From Neocallimastix lanati (nom. inval.) (lineage: Eukaryota; Neocallimastigomycota; Neocallimastigomycetes; Neocallimastigales; Neocallimastigaceae), in contig JACVTC010000070.1 of assembly GCA_016946835.1 (NCBI GenBank), positions 1 to 64,000 on the forward strand: a stretch of DNA of 64,000 nt, written 5' to 3'. Of this stretch, positions 9,301 through 45,271 are shown piece after piece (the stretch's first letter is position 1; each line of letters starts with the position of its first letter). The position numbers and the translations under genes were made by a program. Under the pieces are notes generated by a model. It saw only the letters and a list, made by a program, of their open reading frames with translations. It searched no databases and had not been told where the DNA came from.

Positions 9301-9304
9301 TTTA

Positions 9305-20338: not shown

Positions 20339-20403
<65 letters not shown>

Positions 20404-20702: not shown

Positions 20703-20708
20703 TTTATA

Positions 20709-23181: not shown

Positions 23182-25798
23182 ATGAATGATAATAACAGCG
23201 AAAAGGAAGAAAATAATTCCAAGAAAGTACATAAAAGTTTAAAAGATAATCCACGTCCTTTCGCAACTCCTGCTTTAAGAAAGAAGAAAGAAAATGAGCT
23301 ACATAATAAACCAAATAAAGTTTATAAAAATCAAATACTTCCTTCAATTTTAACTCAACCAAATATTAACAAAGAAAAACAAAAAGAAAAGGAATTAAGA
23401 AATATAACAAGAGTAAGAGAAAGTAAAGAAGAAAACAACAATTATTCATCAAAAGGAAAGAAAAAAGTTGAATCTGAAGATATACTTGTAATCGATAATG
23501 AAATAGAAGATATAGAAATGAATAAAGATAATCAACAAAATAAAACTAATACTTTGGAAAAATTAATTTCAACAAAAACTAAAGAAACTAATAATGAAAA
23601 TACTCAGTTAGTAAAAAGGAATATCAAAATGATGAATAATAAAGAACCTTACAATATTATGGATGATTTAAATAATCTTAAATCCAGTATTACGATAGGT
23701 CAACTCTTGAATGCATGTCCGAAAATTCGTTCACAATTAACTCAAGGTTTAAAGTTAGAAAAATCTAAAATAATTGGAACTGTAGACAATGTAATAGCAC
23801 GAACTTTATTAGTGAATAACTATGATCATAGCTACATAAGTAAAAGTAATGAAGTAGCCGAAGAAGACTTAGCAATGGTTGATGCAAGTGTTGACGGAGT
23901 ACTAGGAAAACTTTTAATTGATTCTTGTAGTAACCTAAGCATCGTTACTAAGCAGTATTTTGATAAATTACCTGGTGAATATGAAACAGTTGGAAAAAGT
24001 CGTGGAAGAATCCAACTAGCAACACAAGATGAAGAATACTCGGAAGGAATTATTGTTCAATTACCAGTAAAAATTAATAATTATGAATTTAATGCGGACT
24101 TTAGAATTATTGAGAAAGAAGACTCATTTTATGATATGTTAATAAACTTTAAAACTCAAATCGATCATTGTTTATTTATTCATCCGACCTTAAACAGTTT
24201 ATGTAAACTTTTGTCAGAAAGTGAATACGAAGAAATAGCTAAAATAAATAATCAATATTATGATGAAGAAAGTATAATTTGCACTATTAGAAAAGTTAAA
24301 GAAACGAATAATGAAAAGGAAATTATAAAGGAATTAACTCCAATGGAATTTATTGAGAGTGATGAATTTTTAAGTACCTTAAATAAAGATTATAAAGAAC
24401 AAATTATTAAAATTCTCAAAGAAATGATTGACATAGTTGCCACTTCAACAGAAGAACTAACTCCTTCTAAACTTTCACCACATAAGATCCGTTTGAAAGC
24501 AAATGCAAAGCCAGTAAAATTAAGAAGTTATAGGTTAACTAAATTAAAATCAGATATCTTAAAAGAAGAACTTACAAAGCTTATTAAGAAAGGATTGATA
24601 GAACCATCCTGTTCAGAATGGTCATCTCCAGTAGTACTCATTCTAAAACACAATGGAAAGTGGCGCTTGTGTATTGACTACCGAAAAGTCAATGATATGA
24701 CAGAAAAAGATTCTTATTCAGTTCCATATATAGATGAAATTTTTGATAGTCTCGGAGGATCTAAAATATTTACAACTCTTGATTTATTTTCTGGTTTTCA
24801 CCAAATCTTAATGGATGAAGAAAGCGTTGAAGTAACCACTTTCACTACTAAGTTTGGAAATTATCAATTTAAGGTTATGCCTTTTGGACTTACTGGAGCT
24901 CCCTCAACCTTCCAAAGAGAAATGAATAAAATTTTATTCCCTTTTATTGGTGAATTTGTTTATGTATTTATTGATGATGTTTTGATCTATTCAAAAAGTA
25001 TCGAAGAACATTTAATTCATATTAAACAAGTATTAGAAGTATTTAAAGAAAACAAGTTAAAAATTAATATTGAAAAGTGCCATTTTCTTCAAACTGAAGT
25101 TGATGTATTAGGTCACAAACTTACTACTAAAGGATTAAGTCCCATGGAAAGTAAAATAACAGCTATTAAGAAGTGGGAAGCCCCTTCATCAATTCATGAA
25201 TTAAGATCATTTCTAGGAGCAATAGGGTATTATCGTGACTTTATCCCTAAATATGCTCAAATTACCTCACCTTTATGTAAATTATTGAAAAAGAATACTA
25301 AATATGAATGGAATAAAGAACAACAAGAAAGCTTTGAACTCCTAAAAGAAAAATTAATCAATGCACCTATTCTAAAATTTCCGTCATTTGACAAACCTTT
25401 TATCATTAGAACTGATGCTTCGTATAATGGAATTGGTGGAGTTCTTTTACAAAAAGAAGAAGAAACCGGTAAGGAGCATCCAATACACTTTATAAGTAGA
25501 AGTTTGAAGAAAACTGAAAAGAATTATGGTATCACAGATTTGGAAGGAACAGCTTTATTTTACTGTATGACTAAATTTAAATCTTATATTGAAGGAAATC
25601 CATTACCTACAACTATTTACACAGATCATAAACCATTAGTTGGTTTATTTAAGAATAAAGAACCTTTGAATGCAAGGCAAACAAGATGGTGTCTAACCGC
25701 TAGTATGCTTGGAATTAATATAAAATATGAATCAGGCAAAAAGAATGTGTTAGCTGATGCTCTTTCAAGAATGAAAAGTAAGGAAGAGAGAAAGATAT
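23182..25798 (+). pseudogene. pol: Element C pol, front part (protease, RT, RNase H), interrupted by element D
   Basis: The sequence holds a Lys/Glu-rich N-terminus, the protease motif LLIDSCSNLS near residue 250, RT with FIDD near 600, and RNase H (TDASYNGIGG near 745; TDHKPLVGLF near 815). It is closest to element B pol. Element D is inserted after the RNase H, with GATAT duplicated on both sides. The open frame also extends upstream of the first ATG to the gag end. Confidence 0.92.
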
Positions 25799-26567
25799 TG
25801 TAAAGATTTAATAAAATCTTTAATAAATTAATTATTACATAATTAATTAATGTAATAAAATTACATAAATTTATGATTTACGTATATGAAAATTAATTAT
25901 AAATTTATGTAAAGTTTTCATAAAGGAAAAATTATTATTTAAATAATTTTGGATAATAACTTAAATCTAAATAATTTATTTAAGTTAGTTAATTTAGTTT
26001 AGTTTATTTAAAATAGTTATTCTATTTAACTTAGTTAATTTAGTTTAGTTAGTTTAAAATACTTTAAAATTAATTTCGGAATAGTTTTAAATAGTTAAAA
26101 TTAGTTTAAATAGTTTACAAAAATAGTTTTGAATTGTAAATATATAAACATTAGTATTAATAATATTTATATAATAAATATATAATAAATGAGTTGTTAT
26201 TGAATTTAATTATTATTGTAAATAAGTTGAAAGTTTATTAAATTAATTATTGTTTAGTTTAGTTAATTATTATTTAATAAAATTATTAATAAATATTTTG
26301 TTTATAACTAAATAGTAATATATGTAAATTAGATAGAAATAATATATTATAATGTAATAATGAAAAAATATAAATACATGTAAATTTCTATAATTAAATC
26401 GATGTATTAGTTATTGACTATATGATAGTTAATAACAAAAAAGAGATTTAATTTTTTTAATTAATAAAGATTATTTTATTTAAAAAAACGAATTTTTATT
26501 ACGTGTTTTTTTTATTTTTGTGTTAAAATTTGTTATTTGTAATCTGTTTCTGATAGAACTCTTTACA
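25799..26567 (+). repeat. LTR of element D (5' copy)
   Basis: 769 bp, repeated at 32155-32923, with ends TGTAAAG and CTTTACA. A TATAAATA box is at 26369-26376. GTATTAGTTAT at 26404-26414, 35 nt downstream of the TATA box, is the likely RNA start and matches the self-primer model. Confidence 0.93.
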
Positions 26568-26578
26568 ATAACTAATAC
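26568..26578 (+). other. Self-primer binding site of element D
   Basis: ATAACTAATAC directly abuts the 5' LTR and is the exact reverse complement of GTATTAGTTAT (26404-26414) in the LTR. Tf1/sushi chromoviruses prime reverse transcription from the first 11 nt of their own RNA bound at this position. No TGG tRNA-type site is present. Confidence 0.8.
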
Positions 26579-26619
26579 CTTTTAAATAAAAAGAAACACG
26601 TTACAAATAATAAAATTTT

Positions 26620-26888
26620 CTACTGATTTAGGACTCTACTTTAGGACTCTACTTTCTACTGATTTAGGACTCTACTTTAGGACTCTACTTTCTACTGATT
26701 TAGGACTCTACTTTATAACTCTACTTTCTACTGATTTAGGACTCTACTTTAGGACTCTACTTTCTACTGATTTAGGACTCTACTTTAGAACTCTGCTTTC
26801 TACTCATCTAGGACTCTACTTTCTACTGATTTAGGACTCTGCTTTCTACTGATTTAGGACTCTGCTTTCTACTCATCTAGGACTCTAT
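26620..26888 (+). repeat. Tandem repeat in element D leader
   Basis: About ten copies of CTACTGATTTAGGACTCTAC-type units are present, with some shortened to TAGGACTCTACTT. Late units vary (CTCATCTAGG, CTCTGC). They lie between the primer site and a run of about 58 A at 27120-27179. Confidence 0.9.
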
Positions 26889-27117
26889 AATTTTGACTTT
26901 TAACATAGATTTTTATTGCTCTTAAGCATTGTTAACCCTTACTGATTTTGGACTCTTATTATTGTTGCTATTCAGGTTGAAATATTAATAATAGTTATAT
27001 TATTCTATATTTTCTTCGTTTACTCGTTCGACACCTTTTCAAGTGGATAGAGTCTGAACGACTTTACGATATTAAATATAGACATATTAATAACTTGTAT
27101 AATTAATAATAAGAGAT

Positions 27118-27182
<65 letters not shown>

Positions 27183-27260
27183 AATTATTAACGTCACTTT
27201 AACATTAACAATCTGGAAGAACTAAATCGCATATTTCAAAACCTTAATCTTGATGATAAC

Positions 27261-30200
27261 ATGGAGGGTCAACAACCAAACCAACTACCGATTCATCCTG
27301 CTACTCAACTGAAAATTATTAACGATCCACCGTTATTTTCTGGATCTACAAAGGATCTTGATGGTTTTTTAACTCGAGTGGAATTGGCAATTGAGGTGAA
27401 TCCTCATAGATTCCCCGATGATAGGAGAAGAGTAATGTTTGTAATCTCCTATTTAACAGGAAAAGCTTTAAATTGGGCTTCATGCCTCAGAAGGAATAAC
27501 AATCCTGTCTTAGGAAATTATGGAAATTTTATTGCTGAACTTCGTAGAAATTTCGGAGACCCTGATGTAGAAGCTGTTATTGCTAACGGAAAATTGTGTA
27601 ACATACGCCAATTTAAATATGGACATGTTGTAGAGTATATCTCCGAGTTCCAAAAAATAAGTCAATACTCCGACTTTAATGAACCGGCCAAGATATACAT
27701 GTTCATAAAAGGTCTCCATTATAAGATGAGAGAAAAACTTGCTATTGTTAATCCAAACCCAGACAATTTGGAAAACTTATTTAGAGAGGCCGTAACGATT
27801 GAAAATCTAACAAAAAGAAACGATCTTAGAGAATATTATCTTACTCATCAGGACAGACGGAACTACAACCAAAATGACCCCATGGATGTCGATCTTTACC
27901 GAATTAAAAAGGGTCAAACTGCTACTAGATACTTTCCCTCTCACAGAAAAAATTACAATGAGCAAAATAACCCTTTTAGGGAAGAACGAAAAAGAAAGGG
28001 CTTATGCTTCGTTTGTGGTAAGGCTGGGCATTTACAGTTTAATTGCCCTAACAAGAAAAGACCAAAAAATATAAAACACATCAATAGAGCATCTGATACA
28101 GAAGCAGCTTCAACTTCTTCCTCTGCGCCGACTTCTTCTGTCAGACGAATTAAAAAGATTTGTGAAAATGAAAATGTTTACAGAATTCTTGATATTGTTG
28201 AAAAAGAAAATATGTTCTTTAAAGGTAAAACAAATATCCTTGATTTCTACATTAAAACCAACAATTCCGAAGAAACTAAAGTGAAGGTTCTTATTGACTC
28301 AGGTTCTGACATTAACTGCATGCATCCTGAATTTGCTAGGGTTAATAAAATCAATTTGATCAATGCTGATAATTCCTTTAAAGTTGCTGGTCTTGGTTAT
28401 GGTTTATCTACTGTTAAGAAAATGACAGAAAAATGTATCCTCCGTTTTAAGAATCACTTGGAAGTTATTCAATTATACGCCCTTCGTATCCCCGATGTAG
28501 ATATCATTTTAGGACTCCCATGGATTGAAAAACATTGCCCTATTAACTACCATGATTCAAAGAAAATCTCTTTCAGTTCAGGATACTGTGCTCGACACTG
28601 TAATGTAGGGAAAAGAAATAGAAAAAATAAGAATAAAAAGAAGTTAAATAAAATTTCTACTAAAGGAAAGGAACCATATGAAGAACTTTCCGTAACAAAG
28701 GAAAAAAATAATCCTAAGCGTAAGTATTCCTTCGAATCTGATTCCGATATGGATTCTGATGAAGAAATTATGATTAGAGGTCGTCGTACTCGTATTAAAA
28801 CTTGTAGTGAAAAAGAAGAACTTAATGATGTAAAAAATTTTTGTATAATTAATTATGATAGTGATGTAAATGATAGTTTTATGTTTGATAATGATGATGA
28901 AATTTATGAATTTAGTGATAGTAATAATATTAATTTAGATGAATTAAATAAAATTTGTAAAATTGATATTTTATGTAATAATGTAACAAAAAATTGTAAT
29001 CATAATGATAATTTTAATAAAGATGAAAAAAAAAAGTATATTTCTAAAAAGTGTTCTGTGAAAAATTTGTGTTGTATCTGTAATTGTTTAAAAATTAGTA
29101 ATTTTGAGAATAAATTAAATCAAAAAATTATAGGAATACCTCCTATTTATAACAATTACGCAGAAGTATTCAATGAAAGAAATTGCAACATACTCCCTCC
29201 ACATCGTGAATATGATTGTGAAATAAGATTAAAGGATAATTCAAATTTATTTTATGGTCCAATATATCCTTTAACTGAGGCAGAACGAGATGAACTAAAA
29301 AAGTATATAAAAGAAAATTTAGAAAAAGGATTCATTAGGAAATCCAAATCACCCGCTGGTGCACCTGTATTATTTGTTAAAAAGAAAGATGGTTCATTGA
29401 GATTATGTGTTGATTATAGAAAATTGAATGAAATGACCATCCGTAATTCTTATCCTCTTCCTTTAATAAGTGAATTATTAGATAGAGTTAAAGGTGCAAA
29501 ATATTTTACCAAGTTGGACTTAAAGTCTGCCTATAATTTAGTAAGAATTAAAGAAGGTGATGAGTACAAGACTGCATTTCGTACTAGATATGGTCATTTT
29601 GAATATTTAGTTATGCCTTTTGGCTTAAAAAATGCTCCAGCCACCTTCCAGCATTTTATAAATGATGTTCTTAGCGATTACTTAGATGATTTTGTTATTT
29701 CTTACATTGATGACATATTAATTTATTCGAATAGTTTAGAGAAACATCATGAACACGTTAAAAAGGTGCTTAAAAAATTATTAGAAAATAACTTGTACAT
29801 TAAATTAGAGAAATGTGAATTCGATGTTACTGAAACCTCTTTCCTTGGTTACATTTTATCAAAAGATGGTTTGAAAGTTGATCCTGAAAAGGTTAAAGCT
29901 ATCCTAGATTGGCCTGTTCCTTCTAATGTAAAGGAAATACAATCATTTATTGGATTATGTAATTATTATAGAATTTTTATCAAGGATTTTGCTAAGATTG
30001 CGCGGCCCTTACATAAACTTACCAGGAAAAATGTTCCATTTCTCTGGGGTTCTGATCAACAAAAATCCTTTGATAAATTAAAAGAACTTTTTACTTCTGC
30101 TCCAATTTTAAGAAATCCTGATAGTAACAAACCTTTCATTGTGGAAACTGATGCTTCTAATTTCGCTGTTGGAGCTATACTTTCCCAAGAATTTGATGGT

Positions 30201-32144
30201 CAGTTACACCCAATTGCTTTTATTTCTACCAGTCTAACCAAATCTCAACTAAATTACCCCATTTATGATAAAGAGCTTCTTGCAATTAAAGTTGCTTTGG
30301 AAGAATGGCGTCATTACCTTGAAGGTGCTCGCCATCCATTTACTATTTATACCGATCATAAAAACCTTACTTTTCCTAGGAAGCCTGAGCTACTTTCTCA
30401 ACGACAAATTCGTTGGTATGAATTTCTTTCTCGTTTCGATTTTAATCTTGTGTATCGTTCTGGTAAAAAATCTGGTAAACCAGATATTTTGTCAAGAAGA
30501 AGTGATCATTTATTTGATTGTTCTCGTGATGTTTCTTGTTGTGTTATTAATCGTAACTCATGTGACGAGTCCTTAATTAATTCTATTTTGAAATCTTTAA
30601 ATAATGATGATCTTTTTATAAAAATTAAATCATTTATTTTAAATAATAGTAATGTTAATCCACCTATTAAATTTATTGATAAGTGTAAAATTGATAAGGA
30701 AGGTTTCTTACTTTTTGATAACTTAATTTATGTCCCTCAGAATCTTCGCACAAGAGTTCTTGAAATACACCATGACTCTGTTACTGCTGGTCATTTCGGT
30801 GTACGCAAAACATTTGATTTGATTAATCGTAACTTTTGGTGGCCTAAGTTACGTAATGATGTTAAAAAGTTTGTTAAGTCCTGTGAAACTTGCTGCAAAG
30901 CTAAAGTTCCAAGACATAAACCCTACGGTCTTTTATCTCCTTTGTCTACCCCCGACAGACCATGGTCAGACATCTCCATGGATTTTATTGTTGAATTACC
31001 GAAATCCAAAGATATGACCACTGTCATGACTGTTGTAGATAGATTGACTAAAATGGCACATTTTATTCCTTTACGTTGTCTTCCTACTGCTTCAATTGCT
31101 GCCGATTCTTTTATTAACCATATCTTTAGGTTACATGGCTTCCCTGATTCCATTGTTTCGGATAGAGGTACGCAATTTACTTCTGATTTTTGGAATCGTC
31201 TTTGCGAATTATTAAACATTAAGTTGTCATTCTCCACTTCGAACCATCCGCAGACTGATGGTCAAACGGAGAGGGTGAACGGAATATTGGAACAATATCT
31301 CCGTTGTTTCATAAATGAAAAACAAAATAATTGGGTTGACTTGTTGCCTTTTGCCGAATTTGCTTATAATATTACTCTGCAACAATCAATCAGTCAATCA
31401 CCATTTTTTGCAAACTATGGATTTAATCCAAAATTTAGTTTAGAAATTCCTTCTTCAGATAGTCCTCATAGAGCTGATGTTAGAGTGAAAGATATAAATG
31501 AAAATATTAAATTTTTAAAGGAAAATTTAGAGTCAGCTAAAGAAACTTATAAAAAGTATGCCGATTTCAAAAGATCATCCTCGCCAGATTTTGAAGTTGG
31601 TAAAAAAGTTTGGTTACTCAAAGGAAATACAACTAAGAATGTAAAAAGGAAATTAGCAGACCAAATGCTTGGTCCATTTGAAATTGTGAAGAAAGTTAGT
31701 TCATTAGCCTACGAACTCAAATTACCAAGTAATATGCGTTGTCACCCTGTTTTCCATGTATCTTTACTGGAACCATTTTATGAAAATGAATTTGCTAATA
31801 GAAATAATAGGAAAAGAAAGAATATTAAGTTAACTACCGATACCATAGATAAGATTCCTGAAAGAATTATTGATATGAGGACATATAGAGGAAAAAATCG
31901 TTTCCTCGTATCTTGGAAAGGCCTAGATTCTGTTGAAGATTCTTGGATCGATGAAGATCAAATTTACGATAGACAGCTAATTCAAGAGTACTTTCGTAAA
32001 TCTAAAAGGAATAAACGAAATAATGTGGTTGATGATGGTGATAAAGATTTTAATGAAGAATACATTAGGCATAAATATCAACCATTTATAATTGACATTC
32101 CTTCCCGGAGATTGAACTCTATAGTTCGCAGGAGCTCAACTTAA
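27261..32144 (+). CDS. gag-pol: Element D Gag-Pol polyprotein with chromodomain
   Basis: A single 1627-residue frame carries all parts. Capsid-like gag is followed by the CCHC knuckle CFVCGKAGHLQFNC near residue 248 and a protease with LIDSGSD near 343. RT has YIDD near 814, and RNase H has TDAS near 963. The integrase HHCC finger lies near 1170-1213 and the DDE core near 1240-1340 (DFIVELP, SDRGTQF, TERVNG). A C-terminal chromodomain (RIIDMRTYRGKNRFLVSWKG, about 1530-1577) completes it. The chromodomain usually guides integration to modified chromatin. One frame for gag and pol is typical of the Tf1/sushi group. No break is visible. Codon use is less extreme than in A. Confidence 0.95.
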   Translation: MEGQQPNQLPIHPATQLKIINDPPLFSGSTKDLDGFLTRVELAIEVNPHRFPDDRRRVMFVISYLTGKALNWASCLRRNNNPVLGNYGNFIAELRRNFGDPDVEAVIANGKLCNIRQFKYGHVVEYISEFQKISQYSDFNEPAKIYMFIKGLHYKMREKLAIVNPNPDNLENLFREAVTIENLTKRNDLREYYLTHQDRRNYNQNDPMDVDLYRIKKGQTATRYFPSHRKNYNEQNNPFREERKRKGLCFVCGKAGHLQFNCPNKKRPKNIKHINRASDTEAASTSSSAPTSSVRRIKKICENENVYRILDIVEKENMFFKGKTNILDFYIKTNNSEETKVKVLIDSGSDINCMHPEFARVNKINLINADNSFKVAGLGYGLSTVKKMTEKCILRFKNHLEVIQLYALRIPDVDIILGLPWIEKHCPINYHDSKKISFSSGYCARHCNVGKRNRKNKNKKKLNKISTKGKEPYEELSVTKEKNNPKRKYSFESDSDMDSDEEIMIRGRRTRIKTCSEKEELNDVKNFCIINYDSDVNDSFMFDNDDEIYEFSDSNNINLDELNKICKIDILCNNVTKNCNHNDNFNKDEKKKYISKKCSVKNLCCICNCLKISNFENKLNQKIIGIPPIYNNYAEVFNERNCNILPPHREYDCEIRLKDNSNLFYGPIYPLTEAERDELKKYIKENLEKGFIRKSKSPAGAPVLFVKKKDGSLRLCVDYRKLNEMTIRNSYPLPLISELLDRVKGAKYFTKLDLKSAYNLVRIKEGDEYKTAFRTRYGHFEYLVMPFGLKNAPATFQHFINDVLSDYLDDFVISYIDDILIYSNSLEKHHEHVKKVLKKLLENNLYIKLEKCEFDVTETSFLGYILSKDGLKVDPEKVKAILDWPVPSNVKEIQSFIGLCNYYRIFIKDFAKIARPLHKLTRKNVPFLWGSDQQKSFDKLKELFTSAPILRNPDSNKPFIVETDASNFAVGAILSQEFDGQLHPIAFISTSLTKSQLNYPIYDKELLAIKVALEEWRHYLEGARHPFTIYTDHKNLTFPRKPELLSQRQIRWYEFLSRFDFNLVYRSGKKSGKPDILSRRSDHLFDCSRDVSCCVINRNSCDESLINSILKSLNNDDLFIKIKSFILNNSNVNPPIKFIDKCKIDKEGFLLFDNLIYVPQNLRTRVLEIHHDSVTAGHFGVRKTFDLINRNFWWPKLRNDVKKFVKSCETCCKAKVPRHKPYGLLSPLSTPDRPWSDISMDFIVELPKSKDMTTVMTVVDRLTKMAHFIPLRCLPTASIAADSFINHIFRLHGFPDSIVSDRGTQFTSDFWNRLCELLNIKLSFSTSNHPQTDGQTERVNGILEQYLRCFINEKQNNWVDLLPFAEFAYNITLQQSISQSPFFANYGFNPKFSLEIPSSDSPHRADVRVKDINENIKFLKENLESAKETYKKYADFKRSSSPDFEVGKKVWLLKGNTTKNVKRKLADQMLGPFEIVKKVSSLAYELKLPSNMRCHPVFHVSLLEPFYENEFANRNNRKRKNIKLTTDTIDKIPERIIDMRTYRGKNRFLVSWKGLDSVEDSWIDEDQIYDRQLIQEYFRKSKRNKRNNVVDDGDKDFNEEYIRHKYQPFIIDIPSRRLNSIVRRSST

Positions 32145-32154
32145 AGGGCGAGAA

Positions 32155-32923
32155 TGTAAAGATTTAATAAAATCTTTAATAAATTAATTATTACATAATT
32201 AATTAATGTAATAAAATTACATAAATTTATGATTTACGTATATGAAAATTAATTATAAATTTATGTAAAGTTTTCATAAAGGAAAAATTATTATTTAAAT
32301 AATTTTGGATAATAACTTAAATCTAAATAATTTATTTAAGTTAGTTAATTTAGTTTAGTTTATTTAAAATAGTTATTCTATTTAACTTAGTTAATTTAGT
32401 TTAGTTAGTTTAAAATACTTTAAAATTAATTTCGGAATAGTTTTAAATAGTTAAAATTAGTTTAAATAGTTTACAAAAATAGTTTTGAATTGTAAATATA
32501 TAAACATTAGTATTAATAATATTTATATAATAAATATATAATAAATGAGTTGTTATTGAATTTAATTATTATTGTAAATAAGTTGAAAGTTTATTAAATT
32601 AATTATTGTTTAGTTTAGTTAATTATTATTTAATAAAATTATTAATAAATATTTTGTTTATAACTAAATAGTAATATATGTAAATTAGATAGAAATAATA
32701 TATTATAATGTAATAATGAAAAAATATAAATACATGTAAATTTCTATAATTAAATCGATGTATTAGTTATTGACTATATGATAGTTAATAACAAAAAAGA
32801 GATTTAATTTTTTTAATTAATAAAGATTATTTTATTTAAAAAAACGAATTTTTATTACGTGTTTTTTTTATTTTTGTGTTAAAATTTGTTATTTGTAATC
32901 TGTTTCTGATAGAACTCTTTACA
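32155..32923 (+). repeat. LTR of element D (3' copy)
   Basis: 769 bp, matching 25799-26567, preceded by the purine tract AAAGGGCGAGAA. Confidence 0.93.
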
Positions 32924-34127
32924 GATATTATTAACAAAAATTACTAATGGAAATAATGAAGAATTATTATCTAAGGTTGTAAAGGAATTTATTAATGAAA
33001 AGTTTACTGTTATTGATGGTGAAGATTACTTTATCGACAATGGAAATTATAGAAAATTAATAACGGACGAAAATGAAAGGTTTAAATTAATTTTAGAAGC
33101 TCATAATATTGGCCACGAAGGATATTACAAAACATATCAAAGACTTAAGAAAAACTTTTATTGGAATCATATGATTAAAGATATCAAAAGAATTGTTAGT
33201 AATTGTGAAAAATGCCAATTAAATCGTCCTCAACCATATCCAGAACCAACCGAAAACCATCCAACTAAAGTGGAGGGTCCCTTTGTGCATTTAGGATTAG
33301 ATATTATAGGACCGTTACCAAAAACAAGAAATAATAATCAATATATTATAGTAACTGTTGATTACTTTACCAAATGGGTTGAAGCCGAACCCACTGAAAA
33401 CATAACTTCCTCTGATATAATTAAATTTTTAATAAACGTTTTTGCAAGACATGGTGTACCTCAAGTTATTACTACTGATAATGGAGTCCAATTCACTTCT
33501 GATATGACTAAAATCTTTCTTGATCTTTATGATGTATATGTTAAATTTGTAGCTACTTACCACCCTGAATCAAATGGCCTTACTGAAAATCGAAATAAAG
33601 AAATTGGAAAATTACTCCGTTTATTAGGAAGGAAAAATCAAGATTGGGATGAAGTTTTACCTTCTGCTTTATGGGCACTTCGAACTACCAAAAATACAGC
33701 TACTGGACATTCTAGTTTTGAATTAGTATATGGAAGAGAAGACCAACAGCCTTATGATATAGCCATAAGAACAATTGAAAATGCAGGTAAATCATATGAT
33801 GAAATCTTAATGGAAAAATTTGTTCGTCATTATCAATGGACTAGAGAAGCATGCGAAAATGTGAAGAATGCTAACAAGTATTGGGCAACAAGACGAGAAG
33901 AACAAATAAGTATGAAAAAAGGAAAAGAATTAAAGGCTGGTGATCTTGTTCTTGTTAGAAACTTTAGCCGCACTAAGCTAGAACCATATTACAATGGACC
34001 ATTTAAAATTTTAAAAATTCAATTCAACACGGCAACCCTAATCGATCAGAAGACTGGAAAGCAACTCGATAGGAATGTTCACTTTAAAAATTTAGTAAAG
34101 TTTAACTCCGCTTACAGAGAAGCTTGA
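32924..34127 (+). pseudogene. pol: Element C pol, rear part (integrase), separated by element D
   Basis: The sequence begins at the duplicated GATAT. It holds the integrase HHCC finger (HNIGHEG ... CEKCQLN), the DDE core (GLDIIGPL, TDNGVQF, NGLTENRNKE) and a C-terminal domain (AGDLVLVRNFSR) ending FNSAYREA. It is closely related to element B integrase. Confidence 0.92.
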
Positions 34128-34133
34128 GTCTTC

Positions 34134-34145
34134 GTCGGGGCATCT
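34134..34145 (+). other. Polypurine tract of element C
   Basis: GTCGGGGCATCT abuts the 3' LTR, with the same GGGGCATC core as in A and B. Confidence 0.75.
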
Positions 34146-34641
34146 TGATAAGAATGTACTAAATAATGCATTCTTAATTAAATCTACGATTTATTTCTAA
34201 TACATTATGTGTACATTATTATTTTTGTACTTTAATAAATTTTTAAATCCAAAGATCAAAAATTAAATCAAAAATTATATTAAACTTTATATTTTTATAT
34301 TAAATCTTATATTAATAGTAATATTTTTATATATTTAAAACTTATATTAGCAATATTAATAATAAATCTTATTTTTTTTATATTAATAATGAAAATTTAT
34401 ATTAATAATATTTTTATATATTGATAATTAAAAATTTATATATTATATTTTAACTTTTTATTATAAAATTTTATATCGAAATGTTTTATTTTATATTGAA
34501 AAATATTTTATTTTATTAAAAACCTTTATATTAGAATAGTATTTTTATTTTTATTTGAATATTTTAACAGATTGTAATAAAAATTATAGCCAATTAAATA
34601 AATTCTTATTAGTAATATTTTAGATATTTTTAAATAAATAA

Positions 34642-34706
<65 letters not shown>

Positions 34707-35005
34707 TTTTATTAATATTATAAATGTATTTTATTTATATTGTTATAATTAAATTTTATATAATTAATTATAAAAATCAATTTAAATTTAATAGTTTTTA
34801 AAAAAAAAAAATAAATAAAATGTAATTTAGTGGCAAGAACAACTTTTATGCCTTGAAAAAAAGTATAAATAGTTGTAAATTTTGCTACTAATTTTTAAAT
34901 ATCATCAAATAAAATCAAATAAATTTATAAATAAAAATAATAAATAAATAAATAAAATTTGTGTTTCCTTACTTTATTTTTATTTAATTCTCTAAAACCT
35001 TAACA
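34146..35005 (+). repeat. LTR of element C (3' copy)
   Basis: 860 bp, equal in length and apparently identical to 19843-20702. Followed by the duplicated AGTT. Confidence 0.92.
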
Positions 35006-35634
35006 AGTTAGTAAAATTAGAACTTTGGTTCAATGGTTAGTTATACTGACCATGACCAATACTTCATGGGTTCGACTCACACCTCAACCCATTTTGCATT
35101 AATAATTATTTTATTAATTATTTTATTAATTATTAATAATATCTTCTTGAATATTCTTTCTGTATAAAATTATAGAAAGTTAAAGATTCTTTCGGTTCGT
35201 AATTCAACCGAAATGAATTTAGAAATTCTTATTATATAAATTATTTTATTCTTTTTTGATAAGATTCATTTTCATCAATTAAAATCTATATTCTAGAAAC
35301 TTTACATTATTAATTATTACAAACATATTTCTAAATATTTCTTTAAAATTATTTTTACATGTTAAAACTGTTTTTCCGTTAAAAGTATAAATAGTGCGAA
35401 CTTCACGAATGGAAATATTTTTCTTCGTGCTTTTATTAATAATAATTAACGTATAAGTAATTCGAAATATTACCTTGTTGATTAATATTAATAATTATTT
35501 TAAATTTTATAATTAATAAAAAATATTTCTAATAAAACGAATTATTTATACAGATAGTGTAAACCTATTGAGTTTTCTCCTTTCTGTGTTTCTATATCTC
35601 ATCCCGCCTTTACAATAGAAGCACCTCCGTTACA
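35006..35634 (+). repeat. LTR1 of the E/F family, continuation after element C
   Basis: Together with 19824-19842 it accounts for the 644-bp LTR (TGTAAC...GTTACA) that serves element E. It contains the pol III-like unit (35026-35095), TATAAATA (35386-35393) and GTGCTTTTAT (35427-35436), the presumed RNA start 41 nt downstream of the TATA box. Confidence 0.88.
35026..35095 (+). promoter_or_regulatory. tRNA-like pol III promoter unit inside the LTR
   Basis: The A box is TGGTTCAATGGTTAG (35026-35040), fitting the tRNA T8-A14-G18G19 pattern. The B box GGTTCGACTCA (35069-35079) is one base from the consensus, and a TTTT terminator lies at 35092-35095. Copies are at 9246-9299 (without terminator), 18275-18344, 40314-40383 and 44662-44731. 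I could not pair an acceptor stem, so it is not a normal tRNA gene. A 7-bp hairpin TGGTTAG/CTGACCA with one G-U pair covers the A box. Confidence 0.65.
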
Positions 35635-35644
35635 ATAAAAGCAC
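35635..35644 (+). other. Self-primer binding site of element E
   Basis: ATAAAAGCAC directly abuts LTR1 and is the reverse complement of GTGCTTTTAT (35427-35436) in the LTR, a 10-nt match. The same pair occurs at 18676-18685 and 18885-18894. Confidence 0.7.
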
Positions 35645-36107
35645 CTGCTAATCCAAGCCCTCAATACCTTTGCGCTATCCCGCAGACATTCTACCGCACT
35701 TTTAGGAATTCTACTTTCTTAATATCTTTTGGCAATCGTTGGGTTTCTACTTTTACTAATACCTACTCTTCCGGTTCTCTCTATCTTAATCTAATAATCT
35801 TTGAATAAATCTTTTTATCTACTATCTCTTTAATACCGGACTTCTATATCTTTTAATCTCGGATTCTATCTCCTCCCAGACGAATAATTACTGCCTATTG
35901 ATTCCTATTCAAATTATCACCTTGTCTGTTTTGAGTTACCCTCACTATTATATAATTCAATCCTTTGTATCTATTATATTACCGGATAATCCTAATCCTA
36001 TGGTTGTTGAAATTAATTTTTATAACAAAAATTCTTGTACTACCCGATCATATAATTCAAATTAAACTTGTACTACCCTATTAAGATAAAACTTACATTA
36101 CCTTAAC

Positions 36108-36158
<51 letters not shown>

Positions 36159-36412
36159 GATAATATTAAATTAATCTTGTATTACCTTAACCCTTCAAAA
36201 TTAATTCTAATATTTACCCAACAAAATTAATTAATAATTAGATAAATAATATTAAATTAATTTAATAAGAAAAAAATTTTTAATTTTTAGATAAATATTT
36301 TAGATTAATTTAGTGAATAAATCAATTAGTTCTAGATAAATAAAAAAAAAAAAAAAAAATTTTTTTTCATTTAATTTATTACAAAAATAATAAATTTTTT
36401 AAATTAGCTTAG

Positions 36413-36453
<41 letters not shown>

Positions 36454-37499
36454 ATAATAATAATAATATTAATAATTGTAATAATAATTTTTTATTTTTA
36501 ATTATTTTAATAAATTACTTGCTTGAAATAATAGCAAGAAAAACCTGTTCAATTTTATTTTTTATTTATTTATTTAAAAAAGCGTTTATACGAGCGAATA
36601 GAGCTCATATACAGAGTTAGAAGAATTGTCTTCTTTAGTGTTGCACTCGACGAATAGATTTGGTTCTAGACTAGGTAAAACTCTATAAGAGAGCACCGTA
36701 GCCTATTATAAAGGAAAACGGTTCTAGGTTTGCAACAACTCTGGCGAATAAGGAGCTTACGTCACCGAAGGCGTAAGATTAAAATTATATAGTATTTTAA
36801 AATTTTATTTCGTGCTTACTCGCGGCACTAGTTATAATAGTACTGACGGTTTTTTCTATAGTTGTGAGTCAATAGTACTATTCTATTTTATCAATCAATA
36901 ATTTTATAATTAATATTATAATTTTATAATTAAGAAAACAAAGATTAAAATATAAATATAAGGTTTATACGACTTCCAAAGCGACAGAAGTTGGTCTCTG
37001 TTTTCGTAACATTTTAGTGTTCAGATACTATTGATATAGGGGAAAATAATTTGTTTTATTCTTTTCAGCTAACAATAAGTTAGACATAATAAAGAATCTA
37101 ACAATATTACTTCCTTTTGTCTATAAGACATTAACAATCGATTTTATCTGCGTTATCACTAAAAGGCTAAAGGAACTTATCGTATAAAACTTTGATAGAT
37201 TATATATTTAGTTGGTCCAATACTATATAATCTAGTTTATATTTCAGTAATTTTTGATAAATAATTATAAAATAGAAATATTTAATTATAAAATATTATA
37301 AAGTGTTATTAAAATTTTGTGTTCTTATCCATTAACCTTGGAAACCTACCAATAAACAACTTTTGAACTTTTGGAATCGCTACTACCTATCTAACTTTTG
37401 GATTATTGGAATCTCTACTACCACTTTGGGAACTTCTGGATTCTACCGCCTATTTTTTACCTTTGAAAACTTATTCTACTCTACCTTATTTATTTCAAT
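35645..37499 (+). other. Element E leader (5' untranslated)
   Basis: This is noncoding. The first 930 bp or so are shared with the leader-only unit at 18885-19823. From about 36574 it is shared with element F and holds GCGAATAGAGCTCATATACA and the 39-nt block at 36742-36780. Confidence 0.8.
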
Positions 37500-39945
37500 A
37501 TGGACAACTATAACCAAGAAAATCCTACCTTTAAGGACGGTTTTGCTGGTGATCGTCGATTCTTTAAAGGATTTCTAGCTAAAATGGAACTTATTTTTAT
37601 GATTCAACCGGAAAGATTCGCAAACGATGAAGCTAAAGTAATCTATATCATTTCTCGTTTGTATGGAAACGCCATGAATTGGGCTGCTACTCTCATTGAA
37701 AACCAAGATCCTTGTCTCCTTAATTACAATCAATTCATTGCTAGATTAAAATCAGTATTTGGAAGCTACGATTCTACCTTTATTGCCAACCAGAAATTAA
37801 GAACAATCAAACAAAAACGAATTGGTGAAGTCAGAAATTATATTTTAGAATTTAATAAATACGCCGATGAATCTTCTTGGAATGAAGAAGCCAAGATGGA
37901 CGCCTTTCTTGCCGGTCTACATGACCATATTGCTACTAGAATTTTAGAAATGTTTCCTGGACCTCAAACCCTCTTTGCTATGCAAACAATTGCATCTCGA
38001 ATCGATAATCGTATTTCTACTCATAGACAATTTTCCAATCTTCATGGTCAAAATTCAAATAATAGTAATAATAATAAAAATAAAAAGGGCAAAAAATCAT
38101 TCTTTTTCCAAAAGCAATTTAAATCCAAACCTCATGGACCTCTATCTCAAGAAGAAAAAGAAAGAAGAAGAAGAGAAAATCTTTGTTTGTATTGTGGATC
38201 CTCTGAACATTCTCTCGACAATTGTCCACTTAAAAATAAATATAAAAATAAAAATAAACCTTCATCAAGTAGCACTTATGTTTCTAATCCCGAATCAAAA
38301 CCTATTTCTAGACCTAGAGTTTCTAACTCAAATCTTCCTATTTACGAATTTTCTTTGAGTATTGATAATACAAATTCTACTGCTAAAATTCTTCTCGATA
38401 CTGGTTCTCAAATCAATTTAATGGATATCTACTATATTAAAGAAAATAATATCCCGTATTCAACTAAAACTAATTTTCCTAAGGTATCTGGCATCGGTGG
38501 AAAGCAAACTATTCTTGGTAAAACTCTTCCTATTTCCATTACTTATAATAACCATAAATGTAAGACTCAATTCTATGTGGTTGACCTTCCTTCTTATTGT
38601 GCTATTTTAGGTTTCGAATGGATTTCTACTCACAATCCTGATATTGACTTCAAAAATAAAGTCTTAAGATTTAATTCCAATTATTGCGTTGAAAATTGTT
38701 TAATCATCCCTAACTCCTTTACTTCTTATGTTCCTTTAAATACTACTAAACAAAATGACAAAAATGAAAATGAAGAAATCAATAATAAAATAAGCAAATC
38801 ATTACAAAAAAAATTACTTCCATTTATAGACACTTTCAGTGGAATATACACTAATGAATCACCTCCTTATTGTCCTTTTGATAGCGAGATTAAACCCAAA
38901 CAAAATGAAAAACTTCATTATGATCCAATCTACCCCTTAACTGAAAAAGAATCTCTAGCTTCGAAGAAATATATTAAAGAAAATGAAGACAAAAAATTTA
39001 TTAGAAAATCTAAATCTCCAGCTGCTGCTTCTGTTTTAATTGTTCCCAAGAAAGACCTAAATGATCTCTTTCGTATTCATAAACCACCCTCCGATTTCTT
39101 TTCTGATAAAGGTTCTCAATTCACTTCAAAATTTTGGTCAGCTATTTGTAAATCTTTCAATATCACAACAAAACTTGCTTCTCCCTTCCATCACCAAACC
39201 AATGGTTTAACGGAGAGGGTGAACTCCGTTATTGAACAATACTTAAGATGTTATTCAAACTTTAAAGGTTCTGATTGGTATAATTTTTTTATTCCTAGCA
39301 GAATTCAGTTATAATAATTCAATTCAAGAATCAATTAAGCACTCACCTTTTTATGCAAACTATGGATATAATCCAAGATATTCACCATCAATTCCAAACA
39401 GTACAGATGTTCCTAGAGCTGATGAATTTACAAAAGATTTTTCAGAATTATTCAAAACACTTAATGGAAATTTACAACAAGCAAGAAATAAGCAAGAAGA
39501 ATTTGCAAACAAACATCGTATTGAAGCTCCAAATTTTAAACCTGGTGATAAAGTGTGGATTAATAGTTCACTTATAATTCATAATGGAAATAAAAAACTT
39601 AAACCCAGAAAACTTGGTCCATATAAAATCATTAAGAAAATTTCTCCCGTTTCATATAAGTTAGACTTACCAAAAGAAATCAGAATCCATCCTGTAATAC
39701 ATGTTTCTGAACTTGAACCATTTTATGAAGATCACTTTGGACGAAAGAAAGAACCACCACCACCGATAATTATTGACAATGAAGAAGAATACGAAGTTGA
39801 AAAAATTCTTGATAAAAGGAAACATTATGGCAAAACCCAATATCTTATTAAATGGAAAGGTTATCCTTTATCTGAAGCATCTTGGGAACCCGAAGAAAAT
39901 TTAAATTGCCCCAAACTCTTAAAAGAATTTAACAATAATAACTAA
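37500..39945 (+). pseudogene. Element E gag-pol derivative, about one break
   Basis: Parts seen are a capsid-like gag starting MDNYNQENPTFKDGF, a CCHC knuckle CLYCGSSEHSLDNC near residue 229, a protease with LLDTGSQ near 298, part of the RT N-terminus, part of the integrase core (SDKGSQFTSKFW, GLTERVNS), the integrase C-terminal [13 protein letters not shown] region and a chromodomain ([20 protein letters not shown]). The RT palm and RNase H are not found. There is about one break in the frame. Confidence 0.88.
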
Positions 39946-40278
39946 AATTAAAACTTGAAAATGAATCTTCACTTTATTAATATCAAACTTATATTAATTT
40001 ATTAATATCAATATTACTAAATATTATTTTATATTATTAAATATTATTAATATTCATGTATTCTTATTATATATTATATTCATGTAACTTTATTAATATC
40101 ATGTAATTTTATTCAAAAAAAGTTCGTACTATAAAATGGTTAATTATTATTTTTATTTTATTTTATTTTATTTTAGTTTAGTTTAATTTAGTTTAGTTTA
40201 GTTTAGTTTGCTTAATTTTAGTATAAGTTATGCCTAACTGTTAGATTCGTCTGGTATCCGAATCCTGGAGGCGGACCA

Positions 40279-40922
40279 TGTAACGAAATCTTCAGTTAGT
40301 AAAATTAGAACTTTGGTTCAATGGTTAGTTATACTGACCATGACCAATACTTCATGGGTTCGACTCACACCTCAACCCATTTTGCATTAATAATTATTTT
40401 ATTAATTATTTTATTAATTATTAATAATATCTTCTTGAATATTCTTTCTGTATAAAATTATAGAAAGTTAAAGATTCTTTCGGTTCGTAATTCAACCGAA
40501 ATGAATTTAGAAATTCTTATTATATAAATTATTTTATTCTTTTTTGATAAGATTCATTTTCATCAATTAAAATCTATATTCTAGAAACTTTACATTATTA
40601 ATTATTACAAACATATTTCTAAATATTTCTTTAAAATTATTTTTACATGTTAAAACTGTTTTTCCGTTAAAAGTATAAATAGTGCGAACTTCACGAATGG
40701 AAATATTTTTCTTCGTGCTTTTATTAATAATAATTAACGTATAAGTAATTCGAAATATTACCTTGTTGATTAATATTAATAATTATTTTAAATTTTATAA
40801 TTAATAAAAAATATTTCTAATAAAACGAATTATTTATACAGATAGTGTAAACCTATTGAGTTTTCTCCTTTCTGTGTTTCTATATCTCATCCCGCCTTTA
40901 CAATAGAAGCACCTCCGTTACA
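40279..40922 (+). repeat. LTR2, shared by elements E and F
   Basis: 644 bp with TGTAAC...GTTACA ends, carrying the pol III-like unit (A box 40314-40328, B box 40357-40367). It serves as 3' LTR of E and 5' LTR of F. Confidence 0.9.
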
Positions 40923-41853
40923 TTTATTTAAAAAGGCGTTTATACGAGCGAATAGAGCTCATATACAGAGTTAGAAGAATTATCTTCTTTAGTGTTGCAC
41001 TCGACGAATAGATTTGGTTCTAGACTAGGTAAAACTCTATAAGAGAGCACCGTAGCCTATTATAAAGGAAAACGGTTCTAGGTTTGCAACAACTCTGGCG
41101 AATAAGGAGCTTACGTCACCGAAGGCGTAAGATTAAAATTATATAGTATTTTAAAATTTTATTTCGTGCTTACTCGCGGCACTAGTTATAATAGTACTGA
41201 CGGTTTTTTCTATAGTTGTGAGTCAATAGTACTATTCTATTTTATCAATTAATAATTTTATAATTAATATTATAATTTTATAATTAAGAAAACAAAGATT
41301 AAAATATAAATATAAGGTTTATACGACTTCCAAAGCGACAGAAGTTGGTCTCTGTTTTCGTAACATTTTAGTGTTCAGATACTATTGATATAGGGGAAAA
41401 TAATTTGTTTTATTCTTTTCAGCTAACAATAAGTTAGACATAATAAAGAATCTAACAATATTACTTCCTTTTGTCTATAAGACATTAACAATCGATTTTA
41501 TCTGCGTTATCACTAAAAGGCTAAAGGAACTTATCGTATAAAACTTTGATAGATTATATATTTAGTTGGTCCAATACTATATAATCTAGTTTATATTTCA
41601 GTAATTTTTGATAAATAATTATAAAATAGAAATATTTAATTATAAAATATTATAAAGTGTTATTAAAATTTTGTGTTCTTATCCATTAACCTTGGAAACC
41701 TACCAATAAACAACTTTTGAACTTTTGGAATCGCTACTACCTATCTAACTTTTGGATTATTGGAATCTCTACTACCACTTTGGGAACTTCTGGATTCTAC
41801 CGCCTATTCTTTACCTTTGAAAACTTATTCTACTCTACCTTATTTATTTCAAT

Positions 41854-44298
41854 ATGGACAACTATAACCAAGAAAATCCTACCTTTAAGGACGGTTTTGC
41901 TGGTGATCGTCGATTCTTTAAAGGATTTCTAGCTAAAATGGAACTTATTTTTATGATTCAACCGGAAAGATTTGCAAACGATGAAGCTAAAGTAATCTAT
42001 ATCATTTCTCGTTTGTATGGAAACGCCATGAATTGGGCTGCTACCCTTATTGAAAACCAAGATCCTTGTCTCCTTAATTATAATCAATTCATTGCTAGAT
42101 TAAAATCAGTATTTGGAAGCTACGACTCTACCTTTATTGCCAACCAGAAATTAAGAACAATCAAACAAAAACGAATTGGTGAAGTCAGAAATTATATTTT
42201 AGAATTTAATAAATACGCCGATGAATCTTCTTGGAATGAAGAAGCCAAGATGGACGCCTTTCTTGTCGGTCTACATGACCATATTGCTACTAGAATTTTA
42301 GAAATGTTTCCTGGACCTCAAACCCTCTTTGCTATGCAAACAATTGCATCTCGAATCGATAATCGTATTTCTACTCATAGACAATTTTCCAATCTTCATG
42401 GTCAAAATTCAAATAATAGTAATAATAATAAAAATAAAAAGGGCAAAAAATCATTCTTTTTCCAAAAGCAATTTAAATCCAAACCTCATGGACCTCTATC
42501 TCAAGAAGAAAAAGAAAGAAGAAGAAGAGAAAATCTTTGTTTGTATTGTGGATCCTCTGAACATTCTCTCGACAATTGTCCACTTAAAAATAAATATAAA
42601 AATAAAAATAAACCTTCATCAAGTAGCACTTATGTTTCTAATCCCGAATCAAAACCTATTTCTAGACCTAGAGTTTCTAACTCAAATCTTCCTATTTACG
42701 AATTTTCTTTGAGTATTGATAATACAAATTCTACTGCTAAAATTCTTCTCGATACTGGTTCTCAAATCAATTTAATGGATATCTACTATATTAAAGAAAA
42801 TAATATCCCGTATTCAACTAAAACTAATTTCCCTAAGGTATCTGGCATCGGTGGAAAGCAAACTATTCTTGGTAAAACTCTTCCTATTTCCATCACTTAT
42901 AAAAATCACAAATGTAAAACTCAATTCTATGTGGTTGACCTTCCTTCTTATTGTGCTATTTTAGGTTTCGAATGGATTTCTACTCACAATCTCGACATTG
43001 ACTTCAAAAATAAAGTTTTAAGATTTAATTCCAATTATTGCGTTGAAAATTGTTTAATCATCCCTAACTCCTTTACTTCTTATGTTCCTTTAAATACTAC
43101 TAAACAAAATGATAAAAATGAAAATGAAGAAATCAATAATAAAATAAGCAAATCATTACCAAAAAAATTACTTCCCTTTATAGACACTTTCAGTAAAATA
43201 TACACTAATGAATCACCTCCTTATTGTCCTTTTGATAGCGAGATTAAACTCAAACAAAATGAAAAACTTCATTATGATCCAATCTACCCCTTAACTGAAA
43301 AAGAATCTCTAGCTTCGAAGAAATATATTAAAGAAAATGAAGACAAAAAATTTATTAGAAAATCTAAATCTCCAGCTGCTGCTTCTGTTTTAATTGTTCC
43401 CAAGAAAGACCTAAATGATCTCTTTCGTATTCATAAACCACCCTCCGATTTCTTTTCTGATAAAGGTTCTCAATTCACTTCAAAATTTTGGTCAGCTATT
43501 TGTAAATCTTTCAATATCACAACAAAACTTGCTTCTCCCTTCCATCACCAAACCAATGGTTTAACGGAGAGGGTGAACTCCGTTATTGAACAATACTTAA
43601 GATGTTATTCAAACTTTAAAGGTTCTGATTGGTATAATTTTTTATTCCTAGCAGAATTCAGTTATAATAATTCAATTCAAGAATCAATTAAGCACTCACC
43701 TTTTTATGCAAACTATGGATATAATCCAAGATATTCACCATCAATTCCAAACAGTACAGATGTTCCTAGAGCTGATGAATTTACAAAAGACCTTTCAGAA
43801 TTATTCAAAACACTTAATGGAAATTTACAACAAACAAGAAAAAAGCAAGAAGAATTCGCAAACAAACATCGTATTGAAGTTCCAAATTTTAAACCTGGTG
43901 ATAAAGTGTGGATTAATAGTTCACTTATAATTCATAATGGAAATAAAAAACTTAAACCCAGAAAACTTGGTCCATATAAAATCATTAAGAAAATTTCTCC
44001 CGTTTCATATAAGTTAGACTTACCAAAAGAAATCAGAATCCATCCTGTAATACATGTTTCTGAACTTGAACCATTTTATGAAGATCACTTTGGACGAAAG
44101 AAAGAACCACCACCACCGATAATTATTGACAATGAAGAAGAATACGAAGTTGAAAAAATTCTTGATAAAAGGAAACATTATGACAAAACCCAATATCTTA
44201 TTAAATGGAAAGGTTATCCTTTATCTGAAGCATCTTGGGAACCCGAAGAAAATTTAAATTGCTCTAAACTCTTAAAAGAATTTAACAAAAATAACTAA
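41854..44298 (+). pseudogene. Element F gag-pol derivative without RT palm or RNase H
   Basis: One continuous 814-residue frame carries capsid-like gag, CCHC knuckle CLYCGSSEHSLDNC, protease LLDTGSQ, part of the RT N-terminus, part of the integrase core, the integrase C-terminus and a chromodomain ([20 protein letters not shown]). RT catalytic and RNase H parts are absent, as in E, so the reduced form predates the split of E and F. Element D, with one frame and a chromodomain, is the kind of relative that could supply the missing activities. Confidence 0.9.
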
Positions 44299-44626
44299 AA
44301 TTAAAACTTGAAAATGAATCTTTACTTTATTAATATCAAACTTATATTAATTTATTAATATCAATATTACTAAATATTATTTTATATTATGAAATATTAT
44401 TAATATTCATGTATTCTTATTATATATTATATTCATGTAACTTTATTAATATCATGTAATTTTATTCAAAAAAGTTCGTACTATAAAATGGTTAATTAAT
44501 TATTTTTATTTTATTATATTTTATTTTATTTTAATTTAGTTTAGTTTAGTTTAGTTTGCTTAATTTTAGTATAAGTTATGCCTAACTGTTAGATTCGTCT
44601 GGTATCCGAATCCTGGAGGCGGACCA

Positions 44627-45271
44627 TGTAACGAAATCTTCAGTTAGTAAAATTAGAACTTTGGTTCAATGGTTAGTTATACTGACCATGACCAATACTT
44701 CATGGGTTCGACTCACACCTCAACCCATTTTGCATTAATAATTATTTTATTAATTATTTTATTAATTATTAATAATATCTTCTTGAATATTCTTTCTGTA
44801 TAAAATTATAGAAAGTTAAAGATTCTTTCGGTTCGTAATTCAACCGAAATGAATTTAGAAATTCTTATTATATAAATTATTTTATTCTTTTTTGATAAGA
44901 TTCATTTTCATCAATTAAAATCTATATTCTAGAAACTTTACATTATTAATTATTACAAACATATTTCTAAATATTTCTTTAAAATTATTTTTACATGTTA
45001 AAACTGTTTTTCCGTTAAAAGTATAAATAGTGCGAACTTCACGAATGGAAATATTTTTCTTCGTGCTTTTATTAATAATAATTAACGTATAAGTAATTCG
45101 AAATATTACCTTGTTGATTAATATTAATAATTATTTTAAATTTTATAATTAATAAAAAATATTTCTAATAAAACGAATTATTTATACAGATAGTGTAAAC
45201 CTATTGAGTTTTCTTCTTTTGTGTGTTTCTATACCCCGTCCCGCCGTTACAATAGAAGCACCTCCGTTACA
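44627..45271 (+). repeat. LTR3, 3' LTR of element F
   Basis: 645 bp with TGTAAC...GTTACA ends, the pol III-like unit (A box 44662-44676, B box 44705-44715), and a variant GTCCCGCCGTTAC near the end also seen in LTR0. It is the right edge of the retrotransposon stack, with host sequence following. Confidence 0.9.

Follow-up and report, generated by a model that had tools for sequence, protein, structure and literature searches.

Organisation of the locus and of the Pol III-like unit

The window analysed was a 64,000-nucleotide stretch of Neocallimastix lanati DNA (contig JACVTC010000070.1, positions 1 to 64,000, forward strand; 23% GC). It is occupied by nested Ty3/gypsy elements, labelled A, B and C, together with two copies of a chromovirus, E/F. 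Element A lies on the minus strand at 26–9223 and is bordered by the target-site duplication (TSD) ACAG at 22–25 and 9224–9227. Element B, also on the minus strand, extends from 9305 to 18252. Element C (19843–35005, plus strand) is interrupted by a further chromovirus, D, at 25799–32923; its terminal repeats are identical, 861 nt long and have the termini TGATAAG...CTTAACA, and its TSD, AGTT, is at 19839–19842 on the left and 35006–35009 on the right. The E/F 5′ LTR that C interrupted is divided into its first 19 nt, beyond C's left edge (19824–19842), and its remainder at 35010–35634, which ends in CGTTACA. Uninterrupted E/F LTRs are found at 40279–40922, with a Pol III-like unit whose A box is at 40314–40324, and at 44627–45271, the third LTR of a copy pair with a common LTR. 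In this pair (35010–45271) the order is LTR, internal, LTR, internal, LTR, the middle LTR being common to both copies, and the second copy lacks approximately 930 nt of 5′ internal sequence. Another E/F LTR adjoins B at 18253–18884 and continues into E/F 5′ internal sequence, which extends to about 19822, and a second copy of the unit, truncated directly after its B box, is at 9228–9300; all these E/F features are on the plus strand. A minus-strand ORF at 55859–56686 encodes a CDC20/Fizzy WD40 domain and was the sole host-like gene among the ORFs scanned.

Reverse transcriptase (RT), RNase H and integrase of B are encoded in one frame and in the Ty3/gypsy order, and its best solved match was Ty3. 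C encodes RT, RNase H and an integrase core in two pieces split by D; the integrase piece aligns with Ty3 over 8–311, its best match being a foamy virus integrase with Ty3 slightly below. The primer sites of A, B and C (TGGTGGAGA...) were placed at 8582–8602, 17151–17168 and 20709–20726; B and C have the same site, 6–8 nt from the LTR, and that of A is different. The E/F ORFs of the window encode gag, SH3_Tf2-1 and a chromodomain, and none of them contained RT, RNase H or an integrase core; in the E/F chromovirus the chromodomain and SH3_Tf2-1 come after integrase. A common internal deletion, from RT into integrase with gag and chromodomain kept, was observed at 37500–39314 and 41854–44298 of the window and at loci L008 and L010; common to many E/F copies, it is a successful deleted derivative. 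The integrase core is absent from L010 and present in L030, whose LTR units are 7025 bp apart, and judging from these sequences an autonomous E/F carrier is likely. A homologue of E/F was found under the label Orpsp1_1, which we take to be the JGI code of an Orpinomyces. Tf1/sushi-type chromoviruses self-prime, their primer site being complementary to their own 5′ RNA end. E/F resembles them in its chromodomain, its SH3_Tf2-1 domain and an LTR motif complementary to its own primer site, and differs from them in the Pol III unit carried by its LTR.

In the LTR interrupted by C, the unit consists of an A box (TGGTTCAATGG, 35026–35036), a B box (GGGTTCGACTC, 35068–35078, 43 nt after the A box) and TTTT at 35092–35095, by its sequence a possible Pol III terminator, all on the plus strand. 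The E/F LTR is 644 nt long in the copy at 40279–40922, with termini TGTAACG...CGTTACA and the A box at LTR position 36. The preliminary description had placed this unit at the very start of the LTR; the A box, B box and T4 are present as described, but the LTR (TGTAACGAAATCTTCAGTTAG...) begins 35 nt before the A box, after a polypurine tract (at 40279 and 44627). ARAGORN detected no tRNA cloverleaf in five LTR units, in six LTR units or in the window, and no Rfam family was found in the window. The LTRs of A, B, C and D, scanned in the same way as E/F, contained no A/B box pair on either strand, and viral contigs scanned for the unit gave no match. The T run is only four nucleotides long and lies upstream of the TATA motif of the E/F LTR. 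Because TTTT precedes this motif, the unit is hardly the promoter of the template or genome RNA, and it is unlikely that Pol III makes E/F template RNA. Use of the unit as a reverse-transcription primer was considered and rejected, because the E/F primer site corresponds to the presumed 5′ end of the element itself.

The TSD of C (AGTT, 35006–35009) lies 17–20 bp upstream of the A box at 35026–35036, and that of A (ACAG, 9224–9227) precedes the A box of the second unit copy, at 9246, by 19–22 bp, both in agreement with what had been proposed. The right edge of B (18252/18253) was likewise confirmed 22 bp upstream of an A box, at 18275. A simple third insertion is not what produced it, however, since B has no matching TSD and its left end (9305) abuts a unit truncated just after the B box. 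In the window (9228–9305) and at L075 (C5 near 601822), a B-type LTR edge truncates the unit at its B box or immediately behind it, and the LTR of B carries the motif GGTTCGAG. Such B-type edges perhaps reflect recombination or a second insertion spot.

Interrupted units across the assembly and families with the unit

The assembly of the window (199,045,447 bases, 762 contigs) was searched with a 28-nt core of the unit, yielding 162 matches with at most 2 mismatches. Upstream junctions were read for the 100 matches listed of these 162; only junctions in the roughly 35 nt preceding the A box could be recognised. The end of another element interrupted 44 of the 100 units; 30 followed a polypurine tract, being intact 3′ LTRs, and 26 had an intact LTR start behind other sequence. 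Insertions near A boxes had been predicted beyond the window, and among these 100 units they were not scattered: all 44 invading ends were 20–26 nt before the A box, a span of 7 nt, with 15 at 23 nt, 13 at 21 nt, 9 at 22 nt, 3 at 20 nt, 2 at 24 nt and one each at 25 and 26 nt. Fifteen kinds of invading end were distinguished (C start 15, S 5, K 4, A, G1 and B2 3 each, M and C end 2 each, seven kinds once each) under labels of this analysis's own, using motifs chosen after reading the junctions, and certain of these kinds are perhaps related to one another. Visual inspection separated the 44 into 33 junction types.

As a control, a region of the E/F LTR close to its TATA box was used. Twelve of 100 exact matches were without the exact 24-nt upstream flank, a value that is a maximum because loss for any reason, mismatches included, was counted. 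Interruption of 44 of 100 units against at most 12 of 100 controls, the two sets being different LTR copies, gave a Fisher p of 6e-7. The whole control counts (288 TATA-region cores, 266 with flank) differ in allowed mismatches, and the stricter exact comparison was used instead. A comparison of a 52-nt unit edge (124 matches) with the 28-nt core (162) was left unused, as its 3 mismatches admit some interrupted copies (C666:9220, C97:39105 and C106:226324). The TATA region identifies 288 E/F LTRs, more than the 162 close copies of the unit, and therefore many E/F LTRs carry a diverged or lost unit. It is well supported that the E/F LTR unit is a real and recurrent landing pad for Ty3-like elements.

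LTRs were defined as 5′ when a 3′ partner lay 4–9 kb downstream. Within the 100 units listed of 162, the 5′ LTR units comprised 14 interrupted and 11 intact, and the intact 3′ LTR units numbered 30. Five interrupted units had a same-strand copy upstream within 30 kb. That at 18273 in the window was not taken as a 3′ LTR because it runs into 5′ internal sequence, nor was L134, because it follows a complete pair, so that at most 3 interrupted units were 3′ LTRs. The excess of interruption in 5′ over 3′ LTRs gave a Fisher p of 1.4e-4 with 3 interrupted 3′ LTRs and 1.5e-3 with 5, in a comparison that misses stacks larger than 30 kb. The partnerless units (15 intact, 30 interrupted) include solo LTRs. 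Passage of Pol II through the 3′ LTR may keep that unit free of TFIIIB, with mainly 5′ and solo LTRs being hit.

The unit was found near the LTR start in six families, E/F, G (L063, L080), H (L076), I (L072), J (L165, L203) and K2 (L192, L204), the last five being known here from their LTRs. E/F, G, H and I carry TATAAATAG downstream. An 11-nt self-priming match of an LTR motif to the element's own primer site was found in E/F, in the window LTRs at 35010–35700, and in G at L063, both of which have GTGCTTTTATT at the presumed RNA start (placed from the TATA motif in E/F) and AATAAAAGCAC after the LTR, and in H at L076 with a paired change relative to both (GTGTTTTTATT and AATAAAAACAC); it was not found in I, the fourth LTR of this comparison. 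The K2 LTR ends in CGTTACA followed by ATAAAAGCACC, and J has an E/F-like LTR end with CGTTACA. For I, an LTR end and a primer site were looked for and neither was found, its membership resting on similarity to E/F. At the L203 end (C13 near 1631750) an inverted copy of the unit's B-box region was seen near the J LTR.

Mean identity across the LTRs of E/F, G and H was 76% in the A box, 94% in the B box and 51% in other U3 sequence. The A box was identical at 11 of 11 positions between E/F and G and at 7 of 11 in the other pairs. When 243 windows of 11 nt from other U3 sequence were compared by three-way identity, 1 equalled the B box and 14 equalled the A box. In the three LTRs compared, both boxes are more strongly conserved than the remaining U3. 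Each of the six units folds into two hairpins, with stems that differ between them; for E/F, G, H, I, J and K2 the fold z values were -2.5, -2.9, -1.8, -5.5, -2.0 and -4.8, and 4, 1, 12, 0, 7 and 0 of 200 shuffles folded as well, the folds of H (12/200) and J (7/200) thus being within reach of shuffles.

These data bear on whether the unit is a functionless tRNA or SINE relic in the LTR, to which Pol III factors bind by accident. The lack of an ARAGORN cloverleaf in the units and the diverged unit of many E/F LTRs would fit such a relic, but its occurrence in six LTR families, the conservation of its boxes above other U3 in three of them and the two-hairpin fold with differing stems in all six (H and J with the reservation above) make this unlikely.

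C elements at tRNA genes and at LTR-borne units

The start of the C LTR had 795 matches in the assembly. Outer START flanks were sampled in list order, blind to flank content (n = 39). Nineteen were from L061–L090, the head-to-head junction L070/L071 being counted twice, and 20 further flanks were from elements with both LTR starts among the matches listed; L201 (a C-to-C junction) and L202 (no readable edge) were omitted. A script assigned 9 flanks to tRNA genes, 12 to B-box units, 15 to LTR edges and 3 to other sequence, after which L180 was reassigned by eye from unit to tRNA and L075 from other to an E/F unit, its B box being cut by another LTR. The expected association of C with tRNA genes and LTR units was borne out in 22 of the 39 sampled START flanks, which adjoin a Pol III unit, namely a real tRNA gene in 10 flanks and a unit within an LTR in 12 (E/F 5, G 2, H 2, and I, J and K2 one each). 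Another 15 border an LTR (L199 and L081 doubtful), and 2 were unplaced (L062 and L182).

Eight of the nine tRNAs recognised by ARAGORN begin 14–17 nt from the C LTR end, and a tRNA-Met begins at 5 nt. The A box is 21–25 nt from the C end at 8 of the 10 tRNAs (11 nt in tRNA-Met, not found in tRNA-Ser) and at 10 of the 12 LTR units, those where the script found an A box; no standard A box was found by the script in the I unit and one H copy. The targets met by C at this spacing differ in sequence, the tRNA genes being Val, Thr, Glu, Gly, Ser, Pro and Val and the LTR units those of E/F, G, H, I, J and K2. Pol III units face the START of C in 22 of 39 flanks and its END in 2 of 32 (Fisher p 9e-6), and C's 5′ LTR end toward the Pol III gene is expected if a directional complex guides C. 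The earlier proposal that the landing pad yields nested stacks is supported by this spacing, the same as that of C at real tRNA genes, and by the recurrent junctions genome-wide.

GC-rich START flanks of C with A-box-like stretches, in which there is no ARAGORN tRNA and no LTR unit, were observed at L182 (C31 near 520060) and L199 (C48 near 479706) and by their sequence are possibly other Pol III genes. A first look at the genome gave 9278 tRNA candidates. C555 (approximately 170732–399007) accounted for 34 of 63 scored tRNA matches, 31 of them with an equal top score, on a single strand, forming a large dispersed tRNA array.

The unit had also been supposed to spare real tRNA genes. This was not borne out by the C sample, where tRNA genes and LTR units were met about equally (10 and 12), and a decoy benefit to tRNA genes is unproven. 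Retention of the unit for drawing tRNA-gene-targeting elements off host tRNA genes would agree with the 12 of 22 Pol III-adjacent sampled C elements at LTR units, and with the position of the inserts at the edge of the LTR, ahead of the TATA region, where they should harm a 5′ LTR little. With 10 of the 22 still at real tRNA genes, and as selection for such a benefit would be indirect, we consider such a true decoy quite unlikely.

Far ends were sought for ten C insertions at E/F units and eight were readable; of the two others, one was beyond its contig and one (L156) was without a C end. Duplications of 4 bp were present in 6 of the 8: CAGT in C224, C26, C7 and C50, TTCA in C5 and ACAT in C83. 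The C ends in C478 and C424 had mixed duplications, such as recombination between two copies carrying C, or their misjoining, would produce. The far side was the LTR's own first nucleotides in C50, C424 and C478, and the edge of another element, that is, a stack, in the other five. The duplication of C is 4 bp and differs from the 5 bp of Ty3; six uninterrupted E/F pairs had 5-bp duplications, read by eye.

Common flanks were found in L011 and L012, in L021 and L022 and in C50 and C424, and L018 and L024 have a common junction. With the mixed duplications in C478 and C424, these point to haplotigs and recombination, which reduce the independence of the junctions, and the C-at-E/F junctions are not all independent. 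A few insertions, multiplied through segmental duplication, through haplotigs or through recombination among nested copies, could account for such cases. As an explanation of the whole, such multiplication is very unlikely, given 15 invading-end kinds and 33 junction types by eye among the 44 interrupted units (100 units listed of 162), and differing 3′ flanks of the E/F copies edged by C (L012, L016, L020 and L028). Recognition by the invaders of a local motif (TTCAGTTAG) or bend instead of Pol III factors, which the clustering of E/F junctions on few bases (CAGT, TTCA) might suggest, is very improbable, because the C family lies at equal distance from tRNA genes and from LTR units of other sequence and the duplications vary (AGTT, CAGT, TTCA, ACAT, ACAG).

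Proposed mechanism and relation to known systems

We hold it highly probable that the LTR units mimic tRNA genes, recruit Ty3-like integrases via Pol III factors and build stacks. The E/F LTR and about five related LTR families would carry a tRNA-like internal Pol III promoter near the 5′ end, and TFIIIC and TFIIIB would assemble on this unit in the manner of a tRNA gene, with presumed occupancy and Pol III transcription. The integrases of A, B, C and other elements would dock on the unit's TFIIIB, as the position of their ends suggests, and Ty3-like insertion with a 4-bp duplication would take place approximately 17–26 nt upstream of the A box. Because the boxes stay intact beside the insert, the unit could be hit again, giving nested stacks, and E/F would insert elsewhere with 5-bp duplications, spreading new landing pads. 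Since the spacing is equal at tRNA genes and at LTR units, the simplest interpretation is that both recruit through the same factors. The integrase of Ty3 binds to TFIIIB immediately ahead of the sites where Pol III starts (PMC8632968, PMC5911963), and the direction of Ty3 is reportedly set by TFIIIC (PMC8632968).

It is possible, though doubtful, that the chromovirus clade keeps a structured U3 Pol III unit by selection and that this unit absorbs about half of the Pol III-directed integrations made by the tRNA-gene-targeting retrotransposons of the genome. The unit might then serve as a short two-hairpin RNA or as a TFIIIC barrier, with absorption a consequence or a purpose. A cis function for the chromovirus, e.g. 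a chromatin barrier upstream of the Pol II promoter, is in our opinion likelier than selection for attracting competitors. A barrier role is plausible because tRNA genes block heterochromatin in fission yeast (PMC2040200).

The nearest known kind to the E/F unit is TRIMp3. Helenus and Cassandra (TRIMp3) carry Pol III promoters of tRNA-like or 5S-like type in their LTRs (PMC10886601, PMC10853983), Helenus being tiny non-coding LTR elements with tRNA-like promoters (PMC10886601). The likeness lies in conserved tRNA-type A and B boxes in the LTR, where a tRNA need not be encoded, with fungal hosts included. TRIMp3 elements are short and non-autonomous, with a promoter presumed to produce their template RNA; long partners, the author contends, must rely on Pol II (PMC10886601). 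E/F, in contrast, is a gag-coding chromovirus, one copy of which has an integrase core; its LTR has a TATA motif, its unit ends in TTTT upstream of TATA, and other elements use that unit as a target.

Like Ty3, Tj1 and DGLT-A, C inserts only a few bases away from where Pol III starts, and Pol III-targeting LTR elements insert approximately 12–15 bp before the mature tRNA (PMC8632968, PMC5911963, PMC4600332, PMC5006619); Tj1 and Tf1 are treated in PMC4600332. Unlike Ty3, C has about half of its sampled Pol III sites inside other retrotransposons, and its duplication is 4 bp instead of 5 bp. TRE5-A of Dictyostelium similarly reveals, as a targeted element, A/B-box sites other than tRNA genes, but these sites are on extrachromosomal rDNA and TRE5-A is a non-LTR element (PMC5391098). 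Nesting of plant LTR retrotransposons is also non-random, but LTRs are not commonly targeted there (PMC6911290). Within the portions accessible of open-licence PMC papers, no report was found of a Pol III unit in chromovirus LTRs or of an LTR-borne unit as a target, nor any retrotransposon study of this fungal group bearing on LTR targets, which is not proof of absence.

With the LTR unit as a landing pad, it becomes a testable idea that one mobile element is a built-in integration target of another, and nested Ty3 stacks are given a mechanism. Dozens of natural insertions would represent a footprint of Pol III factors on LTRs, if these factors bind as proposed. Pol III units in LTRs are extended from miniature elements to coding chromoviruses, and targeting of tRNA genes need not confine insertions to their vicinity. 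If selection does keep the unit in the chromovirus clade, two guilds of mobile elements would be in a lasting interaction that decides where the genome grows.
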